Source: an uncultured Treponema sp. (lineage in GTDB: Bacteria; Spirochaetota; Spirochaetia; Treponematales; Treponemataceae). From it: a DNA stretch of 64,000 nt. Location: contig CAMVHR010000001.1 in NCBI GenBank assembly GCA_947167345.1, forward strand, positions 1 to 64,000. Direction: 5' to 3'. The position numbers and the translations under genes are program-made. The notes under the pieces were generated by a model, which searched no databases, was not told the DNA's origin, and saw only the letters and a list, made by a program, of their open reading frames with translations. Shown piece after piece: positions 141-10,556 of the stretch; positions within the stretch are counted from its first letter, which is position 1, and every line of letters begins with the position of its first letter.

Positions 141-299
141 ATTCAAGCAAATTCGCAAGAATATATAAGAATTGTCCTTAGGAATAGTAGACAAAAACGT
201 TTGCTGTGTTAAAATATAATTGAATATCATAGGAGGCTGTATGTCCGTCAAAAATCTTTACAAAAAGTCCTTAATGGGTATTGACAAAAATTGCGTAAA

Positions 300-3284
300 A
301 TGTTATGGGGGGGGGTACTTTGTAAAACAGTAAAACCGCTGAAAGCGGCGCTTTTCAGTGCGTTACTCCTTTTCTTTCTATTATTAAGCGCTACCTTCAT
401 TTCCTGTGCAGGCGGAGCTGGAAGTCCTAAAGGCACCGAAGCAGAAGGAACAGCCCTTGCCATCAAGCTTCCAGACACATCAAAAACCCTTTATGAAAAA
501 GAAGCTATAGTTTCCTTTACAGTAACCGTAAGCTCAGGCTCGTTCACCAGCACAAAAAGTGCAGGCAAAGGCGAAACAATGCTGTTTTCAAACCTTCCTG
601 TTGGAAATTACAGCGTAAAGGCATACGGAAAGACAGCCATCGGTGCTGTAGCTGCAAAATGCGAGACTTCCGTAACGATTGTTGCAGGTGAGACAACTAC
701 GACAACCTTACATCTTTCAAGACTTGACCACTGGACAGTAACGTTCTTAAACGAAGATGGCTCAACAATTTCAACACAAGACGTTTCCGACGGCTACACC
801 GTTTCAAAACCTGCAGATCCTACGAAAGAAGGCTACAACTTCAGTGGATGGAGGACAAGCCCAACGGCAACCTCAAGCTTTGACTTCAATACCCCTATAA
901 CAGCAGATACGACCCTTCACGCAAAGTTTGGCATTAAGACATATAAGATTACATTTAACTACAATGGTGGAACGGTTGGAACTGCGACAAGTACAACAGT
1001 GGATGCTGATTATAATACATCTCCGACAGTCCCTACCACAGCTCCTACACGTACTGCACCTGACGGAAGTGCATATACATTTATGAACGGCTGGAATGAA
1101 AGTCCAGATGCCACTACCATACTTGCAGGTCTGGATCCTGCCACTGCCGACAAGACTTACTATGCCGTTTGGTCTCCAAAGGTTAAGGTTACATTTGACT
1201 ATAACGGCGGAACAAACGCTGGAAGTACTAAAAAGGAAGTTTATCCAAACAAGGATACTGCTCCTGAAGTCCCTGCAAGTACCGAAGAACCTTCAAAGTC
1301 AGGTTACAAGTTCATGGGCTGGGCATCCACAAGCAACGCAACAGTTGCCGACAACACGGTTTCAACTACTCCTGTAAGTGCAGACACGACATATTATGCG
1401 GTATGGCTTCCTGCATATAATATTACTTATGTGTCAACACCGTATGCAGTCAACTCTACAAACTATCCTGCTTTCGTAAGCTACACGAGCGATGATGGAC
1501 TTGCCTCTCTGCCTAGCCCTACATTGACAGGATATCGTTTTGACGGATGGTACACGGACACAGCGTTTACTCCTGAAAACAATGTTACTTCCATTGATGC
1601 AGGAACTACAGGACCTGTAACTCTTTATGCAAAATGGTATGTTAAGTTTGTTGCAGATACTCATAATTCCGATAGTGGTTCTGCCACACCGCTTGAAGTC
1701 CTCTACGGTTCAACCGTAGCATCTTTGTCGAATACACTTTTCACTACGACTCCTGCAAAGTCTCATGCCACATCTCTTGGATGGTTCAAGTCTTCTTATG
1801 ATGATGGCGAAGGAACAAGTGCTTCTTCTACTGCGTACAATTTCAGTGCGGAAGTTACCGAACCGTTCAGCCTGCACGTAAAGTGGGAGTCAACTGAGAT
1901 TACATGGGTAAGCGACATTACTCTTGGCACCGACTATACATCTACAAGCGGAGCATACAAGTATTACCCTGCAACAGGATGGTCTGCATCGGAAATGCCT
2001 GCTCCTACACACACTGGACTTACTTTTGCAGGATGGTATAAAAATAAGAGTGCAGATGGAACTACATATTCAAATAAGGTAGAGTCCATAGCCGCTGGAA
2101 CAAGTGGCGAGATGACGCTCTACGCAAAGTGGACGGCTACTGTTACAATACTTGAGTACAGGGCAACGACAGAGGATCCTAATCCTCCACAGATAGGAAC
2201 GGCTCAGACGGTAATCTACGGCAAAAAGGCTACAAAGCCTAGCCCTGACCCTACTACATCAAGGGCTTCGGAAGGTTATACTGACTTCTTGGGATGGCAG
2301 ACTGCCGAAGGCAGTGCTGACCCTACAGACTTTAATTTTACTACCGCTACTATAACAAAAGATACTGTTGTATTCGGAAAGTGGAAGAAGCTTTATACAA
2401 ACTTTGAAGGAACGTATGCAGAATTCCTTGCAGCAGAATTTGTTCCAGACAATACCGCCGCAACTGCATACACGGTAAAGATTACTTCTGCAACAAATAG
2501 TCAGCTTTCAAACATTGCTAAGGCAATAGGAAAATCTTCTTATTCTAATTACAAGGGGGTATATATAAACCTTGATCTGTCAGATTGCGGTGCAACCGAG
2601 ATACCTTCTGGAGCTTTCAAAAACGACAGCTCTTATGCTGGAACAGGAATTGCAACGTACCTTACAGGAATAGTACTACCTTCTGGACTTCAAAAACTGA
2701 ATTATGCAGCATTTATGGGCTGCTCTGGAATTATAGGTAACATTGTAATTCCTGATACCGTAACGGATTTAGGAGATTACACATTTAGAGAATGTTCTGG
2801 AATTACAGGTATAAATATTCCTTCTGGCATAACAGAACTAAAACAGAGTGTATTTGAATCTAGTGGAATTACAAGCATTGTAATTCCTTCTACTGTAACA
2901 AAAATTGAAAGTAGCGCATGTGAGAATTGTTCTGGAATTACGGGGGCAGTTACAATTCCAAACTCTGTAACTGAAATAGGAAGCAGAGCTTTTCAAGGAT
3001 GTTCTGGTATTACGGGAATAACTATACCAGATGGCGTTAGTAAAATAGGCAGTTACGCATTCCAATACTGTTCAGGCATTACAGGTACTATTACCATTCC
3101 TGATTCTGTAACTGAAATAGGAAACAGTGCTTTTAAAGGATGTTCTAGCATTACAGATTTTACCGTAACTGGAACGTGGGATGGTCACTGGCTTGATGCT
3201 ACCGGAACTATATCAGATGCAGATGCCACACTTACAAAAGCAAAGCTTGTTAATGGTGGACTTTACCACTATATCCGCCAGTAA
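300..3284 (+). CDS. surface lipoprotein with InlB-type and BspA-like leucine-rich repeats, phase-variable start
   Basis: About 994 residues read from ATG 300. An N-terminal hydrophobic segment ends in a lipobox (FISC, Cys36), so the product should be an exported lipoprotein. Next come about seven Listeria-Bacteroides (InlB B/Flg_new) type repeats marked by V/I-T-F-x-x-x-G-G and GY-x-F-x-GW signatures, then from about residue 780 BspA-like LRR_5 repeats (IP-x-x-V-T-x-I-G-x-x-A-F-x-G-C). Such proteins act as adhesins or host-binding surface proteins in other bacteria; the ligand here is unknown. The start is odd. The only good Shine-Dalgarno (AGGAGG, 231-236) serves ATG 241, whose frame enters the nine-G tract 307-315 and stops at about 331. 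One more G (or two fewer) would join ATG 241 to this frame. As sequenced, only weak starts (TTG 291, ATG 300) lie in frame, so the gene is probably OFF or weakly translated. Confidence 0.85.
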   Translation: MLWGGVLCKTVKPLKAALFSALLLFFLLLSATFISCAGGAGSPKGTEAEGTALAIKLPDTSKTLYEKEAIVSFTVTVSSGSFTSTKSAGKGETMLFSNLPVGNYSVKAYGKTAIGAVAAKCETSVTIVAGETTTTTLHLSRLDHWTVTFLNEDGSTISTQDVSDGYTVSKPADPTKEGYNFSGWRTSPTATSSFDFNTPITADTTLHAKFGIKTYKITFNYNGGTVGTATSTTVDADYNTSPTVPTTAPTRTAPDGSAYTFMNGWNESPDATTILAGLDPATADKTYYAVWSPKVKVTFDYNGGTNAGSTKKEVYPNKDTAPEVPASTEEPSKSGYKFMGWASTSNATVADNTVSTTPVSADTTYYAVWLPAYNITYVSTPYAVNSTNYPAFVSYTSDDGLASLPSPTLTGYRFDGWYTDTAFTPENNVTSIDAGTTGPVTLYAKWYVKFVADTHNSDSGSATPLEVLYGSTVASLSNTLFTTTPAKSHATSLGWFKSSYDDGEGTSASSTAYNFSAEVTEPFSLHVKWESTEITWVSDITLGTDYTSTSGAYKYYPATGWSASEMPAPTHTGLTFAGWYKNKSADGTTYSNKVESIAAGTSGEMTLYAKWTATVTILEYRATTEDPNPPQIGTAQTVIYGKKATKPSPDPTTSRASEGYTDFLGWQTAEGSADPTDFNFTTATITKDTVVFGKWKKLYTNFEGTYAEFLAAEFVPDNTAATAYTVKITSATNSQLSNIAKAIGKSSYSNYKGVYINLDLSDCGATEIPSGAFKNDSSYAGTGIATYLTGIVLPSGLQKLNYAAFMGCSGIIGNIVIPDTVTDLGDYTFRECSGITGINIPSGITELKQSVFESSGITSIVIPSTVTKIESSACENCSGITGAVTIPNSVTEIGSRAFQGCSGITGITIPDGVSKIGSYAFQYCSGITGTITIPDSVTEIGNSAFKGCSSITDFTVTGTWDGHWLDATGTISDADATLTKAKLVNGGLYHYIRQ
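307..315 (+). repeat. poly-G tract (9 G), slippage site at gene start
   Basis: Nine consecutive G lie 66 bases after ATG 241 and inside the signal-peptide region of the lipoprotein. A frame check shows 9 G puts ATG 241 out of frame, while 10 G would give a continuous product through the lipobox. Poly-G contingency tracts are established in Treponema pallidum. The exact G count is also a common assembly uncertainty. Confidence 0.75.
2640..3170 (+). repeat. tandem LRR-coding DNA repeats
   Basis: About seven imperfect tandem units of roughly 69-75 bases share phrases such as TGTTCTGGAATTAC and GTAACTGAAATAGGAA, and encode the C-terminal BspA-like leucine-rich repeats. The similarity at DNA level makes unit gain or loss by recombination plausible. 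Confidence 0.7.
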
Positions 3285-3882: not shown

Positions 3883-4809
3883 TTATTCTTCTATTTCTTT
3901 TGCCAGTTCTTCTATTTTTTCAATCGGCAAACCAATGGCTTGTGAAATCTGCTCATGAGTACCGAGTTTCATCGCAAGCAGGTTTTTGGCATTTGCAATT
4001 GCATTTGCTTTCATGCCTCTCTTTAGACCTCTTTTTTCTCCAATTTTAATGCCTCGTTCCTCAGCATTTGCAAGTCCGCTTCTTATGTCTCGTTCCTGAC
4101 CTTCAATTTTGCCCTGTATTATCCAGTTCCAGCGTTCATCGCTCAGTGCATTTAGCATGACTTCTGCTTTCATTATGCCCTCCTCAGATTTTGCAATGCG
4201 GTCAATTATACTTTTCTTTTTCGGATTATCTACTTCTTGTAAAAATTTACCCCATTTTATTGCAGTTGGCAAGGCTTCTATGTCCGTTTTGTCATTAATA
4301 GGTGGCAGTTTGGGCAGTTCCATGAAGATTACGTTGATTATGCCTGGAAGTTTTGCACCGTCATTAGTATCTGTTAGTGTGTAATGATGTATTGGTGCTT
4401 CATTCTTTTTGTCAAACATGAAATTCATCACTGTAATCTGATATGATTTCGGCATGTCCTTCCAATCTTCTCCGCGCAGACGATTTGAGCTTACAAGCCG
4501 TGCTGCATAGTACTCAGCACGGTTTCCGAAATCGCAGTCTTTATCTAAGCCCTGCATCTCAACCTGCGCAGTTGTGCCATCTCCAAGAACACAGTTGATA
4601 TCGAAGCTTATGCCCTTTTCTCCGTCAAACTGTATTGCAGGCTCGTTTTCTTTTACAGTAACTTCGGTGATAGTCTCTCCAATCATTGCTGAAAGAAAAG
4701 ATTTCAGTGCAATTCTTGATTCTTCCCTGTCCTGTGTGAAGATGGACTTGAAGTTTCTGTCGATACGTGGGTTTAGTAAAGGTTTGATTTGTTTTTGTGT
4801 TTTATTCAT
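3883..4809 (-). CDS. PD-(D/E)XK nuclease family transposase / Rpn-type recombination-promoting nuclease
   Basis: 308 residues from the ATG at 4809, chosen over an upstream in-frame ATG because AGGAG lies 8 bases before it. The N-terminus (LLNPRIDRNFKSIF) and the central D...E-x-Q strand region (GDGTTAQVEMQG) fit the PD-(D/E)XK transposase family (PDDEXK_2) related to E. coli Rpn proteins, which promote RecA-independent recombination. The C-terminal third is charged and rich in G-EKRG-x-KRG runs, as is usual here, ending in a short IGLPIEKIEELAKEIEE helix. It stands alone beside perfect palindromes (3708-3752). A truncated relative lies at 60441-60962, with the same C-terminal layout. Full-length and apparently intact. 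Confidence 0.85.
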   Translation of the reverse strand: MNKTQKQIKPLLNPRIDRNFKSIFTQDREESRIALKSFLSAMIGETITEVTVKENEPAIQFDGEKGISFDINCVLGDGTTAQVEMQGLDKDCDFGNRAEYYAARLVSSNRLRGEDWKDMPKSYQITVMNFMFDKKNEAPIHHYTLTDTNDGAKLPGIINVIFMELPKLPPINDKTDIEALPTAIKWGKFLQEVDNPKKKSIIDRIAKSEEGIMKAEVMLNALSDERWNWIIQGKIEGQERDIRSGLANAEERGIKIGEKRGLKRGMKANAIANAKNLLAMKLGTHEQISQAIGLPIEKIEELAKEIEE

Positions 4810-5037
4810 TTTGAATACTCCTATACTATTGATATGCACGAGATCCTTCTTTTTTGTACGAATTTTTAGAAAAAAAATTACTTTTAATCTTGAAAAGTTA
4901 AGATACGGGAATGTCTAAATGTTGTATTGAAGTATCAACTTTACTGGATAAATACCAAAAAAAATAAGAAAAAAACTTGCATTTTTTTCAAAGTCAAATA
5001 ATAATATATATTTAAGGATAATTAGGAGTATCTTGTT

Positions 5038-8822: not shown

Positions 8823-10556
8823 GTGATTTCTTTATATAAAGTTATTATTTCTATTCCTCTCATATTGAATACTCTATGCATTTTGCTTATTATTAAGCGA
8901 AAACCATCTTTGGAACAGAAATATGCTCTGGCTGTTTCGTTTTTGACAATATTTATTGGTCGTGGTTATTATCTGGTTACCATGGAGCAGACTTATCTAG
9001 TCGGTTTGAGGATTATTTATGCAATAGCAATAATCCTTATGCCCCTGTTTATCGAGATAAATTCACTAATCTTTAATGTTCATATTTCCAGAAGAATATT
9101 TACTGTCATAGCATCCTTTACATTGTTTGCAGTCTTTGTCCTTATACTGTCGTATGATTCAAACATTTTTATTGATAAAATATTAAATTCTGCATTAACA
9201 TTGTATTATTTATATGCTATAAGCATGGTCGTATTTACCGTTGCAATCTTTATATTCCGCATGATTACATGCCGTAAGAATGAAAGATTCTTTTTTATAC
9301 GCCATTTCATAATGTGCATACTACCTCTTTTATCGCTTTGCTTCATAAATGTAAACAAAGTGTTTTTCTTTCTGCCGCCATATATGTTGTCCTGCTTCAT
9401 TGCATCAATAACGATTCTTATTTTACAGGAAAAATTTTCTAATCTGCCTGATCAGGCTCTTTCTGTTGTTGAAAATGCAGTTCCAGGACCTTGTTTTATT
9501 GTTGATGAAAAATTTATGGTTCATGATGCCAATCTGGCGGCAGTACAGATGTTTCCTGAATATCTGTCTGTCCGTAAGCTGATGAAAAAGCCTGTAAAGG
9601 CAAATGATTTGTTGATGCAGGTTATTTTTAATGCTACAAATGCTGTTCATTCCAAAGATAACATATTTGAAGTTGATGACAAGCAGTATCAGGGCTCATG
9701 TGTTGCAATCAAGTCGGATTTTCGATTTTATGGCTATTCTGTTGTATTGAAGGACATTACTGCTCAGACTGATGTCGTATTAAAGCTTGAGCGCCGCAAT
9801 GAGCAGCAGAAGCAGATTTTACGTTATTATGAGGATGAAATTTCAAGCATTCAAAGTAAAATTGTTTCAGGCCTTATGCAGCTTCTCTTTGCTGCAGACA
9901 GAGAAACCGGCGAACACATCAGACGCATCAGTAATTATACGAATGTCATTGCACGTCAGCTTTTGCTGGAAGGCAAATTCTCTAACACACTTACAGATCG
10001 TTATGTAGAAGTATTAACTAAGATTTCTCCTCTTCATGATATTGGAAAGATAAAAATTTCTAAAAAGAATTCTCCGTCGTCTTCTTATGAGTCTGGCATA
10101 TCTTATTTGAGCGATGCCGAATCTCAGAGACATGTAATATCGGGTGCAGAAATAATTGATTCTCTTATTCTAAATAATCCTGATGATTTGTTTTATTCTC
10201 TTTCAAAAGAAGTAACGCTGTATCATCATGAGTGGTGGGATGGGGAAGGATATCCTAAAGGCCTTAAAGGATATGAAATTCCGCTTGCTGCAAGAATTGT
10301 TGCTGTCGCGGATGTTTTTGATAGTATTTCTTTTAGGGAGTATAAGCAGTCTCATAGGTCGAATTTTGCACAAGTTTTTAATTCTATCGTTTTGTATTCT
10401 GGTAAAAGATTTGATCCTGCTGTTATTGATGCTTTTAAGAATGCAAAAAGTAAAATTGAAAAGCTTTATGACGAGATGCTTGTCGAAGATTTGTCACTGA
10501 ATGGAGTTGGTGATGTTGAAAGTAAGCGTGGGGGGGGGGTATTTAAAAATTTTTAA
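8823..10556 (+). CDS. membrane HD-GYP domain protein, probable cyclic-di-GMP phosphodiesterase
   Basis: 577 residues, GTG start. The first 210 residues hold about seven hydrophobic helices (a 7TM-type sensor region), then a PAS-like segment (about 215-325), a short coiled region, and a full HD-GYP domain: RETGEHIRRISNY, HDIGK (His405) and HHEWWDGEGYP (468-478), with all metal and GYP residues present. The family hydrolyses cyclic di-GMP. It is encoded 90 bases after a sugar-binding lipoprotein, so its membrane part may respond to that neighbour; this is inference. The 3' end contains ten G (10530-10539), which code GGG in the tail. Loss of one G gives a longer tail, and gain of one gives an earlier stop; only the last residues change. 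Confidence 0.85.
   Translation: MISLYKVIISIPLILNTLCILLIIKRKPSLEQKYALAVSFLTIFIGRGYYLVTMEQTYLVGLRIIYAIAIILMPLFIEINSLIFNVHISRRIFTVIASFTLFAVFVLILSYDSNIFIDKILNSALTLYYLYAISMVVFTVAIFIFRMITCRKNERFFFIRHFIMCILPLLSLCFINVNKVFFFLPPYMLSCFIASITILILQEKFSNLPDQALSVVENAVPGPCFIVDEKFMVHDANLAAVQMFPEYLSVRKLMKKPVKANDLLMQVIFNATNAVHSKDNIFEVDDKQYQGSCVAIKSDFRFYGYSVVLKDITAQTDVVLKLERRNEQQKQILRYYEDEISSIQSKIVSGLMQLLFAADRETGEHIRRISNYTNVIARQLLLEGKFSNTLTDRYVEVLTKISPLHDIGKIKISKKNSPSSSYESGISYLSDAESQRHVISGAEIIDSLILNNPDDLFYSLSKEVTLYHHEWWDGEGYPKGLKGYEIPLAARIVAVADVFDSISFREYKQSHRSNFAQVFNSIVLYSGKRFDPAVIDAFKNAKSKIEKLYDEMLVEDLSLNGVGDVESKRGGGVFKNF
10530..10539 (+). repeat. poly-G tract (10 G) at the 3' end of the HD-GYP gene
   Basis: Ten G sit 17 bases before the stop codon and 60 bases before the M16 peptidase ATG. 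With 10 G the tail reads RGGGVFKNF; 9 G gives RGGGYLKIFNFM; 11 G gives RGGGGI. A slippery tract here could alter the tail or, as for T. pallidum tpr genes, affect a promoter for the downstream gene. Confidence 0.7.

Follow-up and report, generated by a model that had tools for sequence, protein, structure and literature searches.

The window, that is, the whole stretch of 64,000 nucleotides analysed here, comes from an uncultured Treponema sp. (assembly GCA_947167345.1, contig CAMVHR010000001.1). A large lipoprotein gene lies near its beginning, and a run of nine G is present in the 5′ part of this gene. The features of the locus are as follows.

113–142: second promoter candidate, TTGACA-N18-TAAAAT (consensus scan)
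188–215, plus strand: candidate sigma-70 type promoter, TAGACA-N16-TAAAAT with an extended TG (consensus scan, 10/12)
231–236, plus strand: Shine-Dalgarno (SD) sequence AGGAGG, pairing energy −10.2 kcal/mol, found in all paralogues with the same type of module as the window gene (C1-type module)
241–333, plus strand: short frame of the OFF phase, opened by ATG 241, crossing the tract and closed by TAA 331–333
241–306, plus strand: leader of 22 codons (MSVKN..KCY) from the SD-linked start to the tract, 81.8–100% pairwise identity among six paralogues
300–302, plus strand: ATG without SD, in the lipoprotein frame at 9 G; GTG in paralogue C57
305–307, plus strand: ATG without SD in the third frame, in the lipoprotein frame only at 8 G (paralogues C4 and C39)
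307–315, plus strand: poly-G tract of nine G, the proposed switch, here in the OFF phase
316–407, plus strand: remaining signal-peptide region to the lipobox FISC (396–407) with its Cys codon at 405–407 (sequence and alignment A1)
405–3284, plus strand: predicted mature lipoprotein with the N-terminal family domain (about 405–734), PF09479 and PF13306

The lipoprotein ORF of the window consists of 997 codons and stops at 3282–3284, and its only starts are TTG 291 and ATG 300. The tract begins 66 nt 3′ of ATG 241, the start linked to the SD sequence, and 89 nt 5′ of the lipobox Cys codon. It lies inside the 5′ coding region and downstream of the SD-linked start, as in contingency loci, and its place ahead of the lipobox (G run 307–315, FISC 396–407) had been pointed out in an earlier, sequence-only reading of this DNA. 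That reading also stated that the frame opened by AGGAGG and ATG 241 passes through nine G and stops at about 331, which is exact (231–236, 307–315, and TAA 331–333). Frame arithmetic confirmed its claim that the large frame joins ATG 241 only with one G more or two G fewer: ATG 241 meets the frame of Cys 405 at 10 G or 7 G. The third-frame ATG 305 reaches a stop at 323.

The SD pairing energy was −10.2 kcal/mol for ATG 241, −3.8 for TTG 291, −0.6 for ATG 300, and +0.5 for ATG 305. Thus, ATG 241 is ahead of ATG 300 and ATG 305 by about 10 kcal/mol, and it falls in the usual range of the window, whose 49 long ORFs mostly lie between −5 and −12. As had been claimed, only the weak TTG 291 and ATG 300 open the lipoprotein frame in the DNA as sequenced. 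The variable columns of the leader number 4, 5, and 9 at codon positions 1, 2, and 3, respectively, a bias that is no more than suggestive.

A small hairpin, CCGCTGAAAGCGG, is found 3′ of the tract at 335–364 and is duplicated in paralogue C65. The hairpin might be a repeat element or merely part of the signal-peptide code. Downstream, the lipoprotein gene is adjoined by an ORF on the minus strand (3883–4839), which by inspection belongs to the Rpn/PD-(D/E)XK-like nuclease-transposase family.

Pfam analysis of the window protein detected PF09479 (Listeria-Bacteroides/InlB repeats) in five stretches (4e-48) and PF13306 (BspA-type LRR) in two stretches (2e-42), the best at about 2949–3170. With the lipobox FISC at 396–407 recognised by inspection, the gene is predicted to encode a bacterial lipoprotein with BspA-type LRR. 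In alignment A1, the mature N-terminus forms a conserved domain that spans about 110 positions. A profile of this domain found the family in 16 of the 196 genomes of the genus, and at least three copies were found only in the genome of the window and in two others, G060 and G012. Most of the family members tested by Pfam possess both kinds of parts (InlB repeats and LRR) in other numbers, and in one member (C59), DUF285 is present and the LRR match is weak. The domains suggest that the lipoproteins may be surface-exposed and that the window protein may act as a host-facing adhesin.

The G runs of the window number 76 of four, 18 of five, and one of six, followed by one of nine and one of ten. 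Overlapping matches to a run of eight G were seen five times against an expectation of 0.26. Genome-wide pattern searches gave 11 tracts of at least 9 G, compared with about 0.8 expected by rough extrapolation from the shorter runs. Nine of these 11 are found shortly before the lipobox in members of a single lipoprotein family, and the number becomes 13 when the tracts of 8 G are included; all 13 tracts (8–10 G) are just 5′ of an 'SCAG' lipobox. The reversed control of the lipobox-linked pattern gave no match in the own genome or G060. Since a run of at least 9 G is present in 185 of the 196 genomes, it is the position of the tract, not its presence, that is special.

Other G tracts were observed in the window and in the genus. 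The 10 G tract of the window (10530–10539) falls within the final codons of an HD-GYP-like gene (ORF 8823–10556), 60 nt 5′ of an M16-peptidase-like lipoprotein gene (10599), both named by inspection, and changes in its length would touch only the C-terminal tail of the HD-GYP-like gene. Elsewhere in the own genome, 9 G (C10, 65829–65837) are located inside an ORF for an FkbM-type methyltransferase (PF05050, 9e-14), which is in frame as assembled and would be a typical contingency target. Three near-complete genomes of the genus (G143, G131, and G072) carry tracts of 9–15 G, some of them just inside gene starts, such as one after an SD and ATG (L114) and one ahead of a frame of 336 codons (L117). 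Several of these tracts, including L122–L124, are repeated copies of one segment.

The phase was read in 12 tract genes of the own genome. Two further copies were left out: in C111, with a tract of 8 G, the frame comes to an end shortly past the lipobox, and contig C86 begins just past the tract. The phases relative to the SD-linked start are as follows.

C1 (window): 9 G, OFF
C2: 10 G, OFF
C4: 8 G, OFF
C18: 9 G, OFF
C19: 8 G, ON
C29: 9 G, ON
C39: 8 G, OFF
C48b: 10 G, OFF
C57: 9 G, ON, with another spacer
C59: 10 G, OFF
C65: 9 G, OFF
C91: 10 G, ON

Four genes are in frame and eight are out of frame, where a random phase predicts one third in frame. In every member, the lipoprotein frame can be followed upstream as far as the tract without a stop. 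In OFF genes contained whole within their contig, the body stays open for about 370–960 codons past the tract; in C39, C57, and C65, the contig stops before the gene end and the bodies are partly seen. The predicted ON length of 10 G was borne out by C91, which has the same post-tract spacing as the window gene and is in frame at exactly 10 G.

The tract length was compared with the flanking sequences. C39, C65, and C91 carry 8, 9, and 10 G, respectively, despite being identical over at least 179 nt to the left and 25 nt to the right of the tract, and C18 (9 G) is identical to these three over 113 nt to the left. Since paralogues with identical flanks differ in the G count, the tract changes faster than its surroundings. 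The leaders of C4, C18, C65, and C91 share 97–100% identity. The bodies 300–1050 nt past the cysteine show 44.6–61.8% identity in nearly all pairs, with the exception of the pair C1–C18 (78%). The simplest reading is that the switch segment has been recombined or gene-converted among the copies. Contigs C1, C39, C57, C59, C65, C86, and C111 end within or near this segment, as a repeat would, and the assembly may lack further members of the family.

In the search of relatives with a structured pattern (tract and lipobox), G060 was found. This is a sister species, a Treponema MAG from roe-deer rumen, and the label 'rumen-type' for the Treponema of the window rests on it. The same tract arrangement is present in seven genes of G060.

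C133: 8 G, ON
C238: 9 G, ON
C97: 9 G, ON (frame by eye from the sequence)
C38: 9 G, OFF
C185: 8 G, OFF
C223: 9 G, OFF
C86: 7 G, OFF (frame by eye from the sequence)

Thus, three genes are ON and four are OFF. One orthologous pair was available: own C48:16187 has 5 G and is OFF, and C97 of G060 has 9 G and is ON. Orthologues also differ by short indels beside the tract. ON and OFF forms therefore both exist, the comparison being one of different paralogues except for this pair. The sequence-only reading had asked for differing G counts in relatives; the count is not a single one, as near-identical paralogues carry 8, 9, and 10 G and the genes of the sister species are mixed in and out of frame. 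A DNA search of 59 relatives with the module gave nothing outside the own genome except a trivial match of 25 nt. A single match in G161 to the structured pattern was dropped as a family member, because the scan revealed no SD-start and its body does not resemble the lipoprotein family.

Homologues without a G tract were found in the own genome (C16) and in G012 (C21, C126, C166, and C192). In these genes, an ordinary start leads into an ordinary lipoprotein signal peptide in one open frame. These homologues favour the view that the SD-linked ATG is the true start and that the tract was added in the lineage of the own genome and G060.

From these comparisons, we propose translational phase variation by poly-G slippage, acting in parallel across a lipoprotein family with a near-identical switch segment (probability of about 0.86). 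Transcription would begin upstream, and ribosomes would initiate at ATG 241 on the strong SD. Slipped-strand mispairing during replication would add G's to the tract between the start codon and the lipobox or remove them from it. Of every three lengths, one would connect the start with the lipoprotein frame (10 G here, ON), and at the other two lengths, including the 9 G sequenced, translation would end a few codons past the tract (OFF). The poly-G phase switch of the sequence-only reading is thus supported by the paralogues, the sister species, and the tract-less homologues. What that reading lacked is that the proposed switch belongs to a whole gene family with about a dozen sister genes. 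These paralogous lipoproteins, with different InlB-repeat and LRR bodies, share the arrangement, and differing combinations of surface proteins would therefore appear among the cells of one population. Since the window gene is out of frame and about a dozen sisters have 8, 9, or 10 G, the bacterium very probably shuffles the surface proteins it makes by random slippage. Mixed populations, a certain slippage rate, and phase-dependent expression would be expected. MutS and MutL are present and unbroken, so that switching would take place in a cell proficient in repair; these proteins would lower the slippage rates, not abolish them. Two further observations count against the switch. The ON product of the C1-type module would have a signal region of 55 residues, which is unusually long and contains extra cysteines, and several copies (C1, C39, C57, C65, C86, and C111) are at contig ends of a fragmented draft assembly.

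The C1-type module might instead exert graded control, which we consider unlikely. Each frame has an ATG before the tract (241, 300, and 305), so that expression would be strong at 10 G and, beginning at the SD-less starts, weak at 9 or 8 G. In the lipoprotein frame, an ATG is indeed available at −7 when the tract has 9 G and at −2 when it has 8 G, the three ATGs (−66, −7, and −2) are all kept in C1, C4, C18, C39, and C65, and the product at 9 or 8 G would have a more ordinary signal peptide of about 33–35 residues. However, the SD energies of ATG 300 and ATG 305 are near zero, and the overlapping short frame, if translated, would interfere. Moreover, there is no such ATG in C2 or in S38, S185, and S223, and C57 has GTG at −7. 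Being without SD and not kept across the family, ATG 300 and ATG 305 may give a trace product. We regard as doubtful the further idea of a portable three-level cassette, in which a near-identical upstream region, leader, G tract, and signal peptide would be copied or gene-converted before diverged LRR/InlB bodies, the tract length selecting among the three ATGs for strong, weak, or very weak expression.

Assembly error and gene decay, as other explanations of the OFF phase, are both very improbable. If the tract were fixed in frame and the OFF phases were homopolymer miscounts, the fragmented draft with repeats at contig ends and the error-prone nature of homopolymers would fit. However, eight out-of-frame genes among 12 would not be expected from occasional errors (at an assumed error rate of 5%), an independent MAG from a different species shows this pattern too, and the differences between orthologues include the short indels beside the tract. 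Broken family members on the way out could be represented by C48:16187, with its tract down to 5 G and out of frame, and by C111, which terminates early after the lipobox; against this, the uncut OFF bodies are open over hundreds of codons and the lesions are only in the tract region. A promoter switch of the T. pallidum tpr/tp0126 type, with TTGACA (about 281) and TATGGG (304) abutting the tract, is the least probable explanation, even though TTGACA with a 17-nt spacing to TATGGG or TATAGG is kept in the C1-type modules. These motifs are absent from the C2, C19, C29, and C48 modules, TTGACA doubles as code for leader residues, the tract comes after the spacer and not within it, and the window gene has no lipoprotein-frame start codon between the tract and the lipobox. 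Since the tract is 3′ of the SD and the start and inside the reading frame, this type was rejected.

If translational phase variation is correct, ruminant gut treponemes not regarded as pathogens possess a considerable repertoire of surface lipoproteins that switch independently, of a kind mostly studied in pathogens, and the broken look of such genes in draft genomes is explained. With a near-identical switch segment before diverged bodies and tract-less homologues in a third species, the birth of a contingency system would be open to study. The key prediction is a mixture of 8–11 G in rumen populations. Searches of an open-licence library turned up no paper describing such a poly-G switch in treponemes of the rumen.

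Haemophilus lic-type loci have starts in several frames, with a tetranucleotide repeat between the alternative ATGs and the body, and their graded expression has been shown. The placement of the repeat is alike in Treponema, where the repeat is poly-G and graded expression is only possible. In Treponema pallidum, G tracts of 7–11 control outer-membrane proteins (tprL, tprE/G/J, and tp0126), and the studied ones act on promoter transcription (PMC7864442). The genus name and the G tracts are alike, whereas the tract of the window is inside the coding region, between the start and the lipobox. In a study of bovine and human treponemes, the fewest homopolymeric tracts were found in the commensal T. 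ruminis (PMC8049484). Neisseria pilC1/pilC2, as summarised in PMC5320596 (Jonsson 1991), have 9–15 G in the 5′ part of the gene, where the frame sets ON or OFF and the counts vary between strains. The proposed Treponema switch follows the same principle, with a poly-G located 5′ in the gene for a surface protein and the frame deciding the phase. However, pilC comprises two loci for a pilus protein and was shown experimentally, whereas the Treponema set comprises about a dozen genes for LRR lipoproteins and is known from sequence. Candidatus Mycoplasma girerdii, known from a metagenome, has many BspA-like LRR surface proteins that are individually switched by repeat-length frameshifts, a number of them OFF as assembled (PMC5476646). 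The repeats of this mycoplasma are mostly dinucleotides and read-level variation was shown there, whereas the Treponema case comes from an assembly; in both, a set of LRR surface proteins would be switched one by one.
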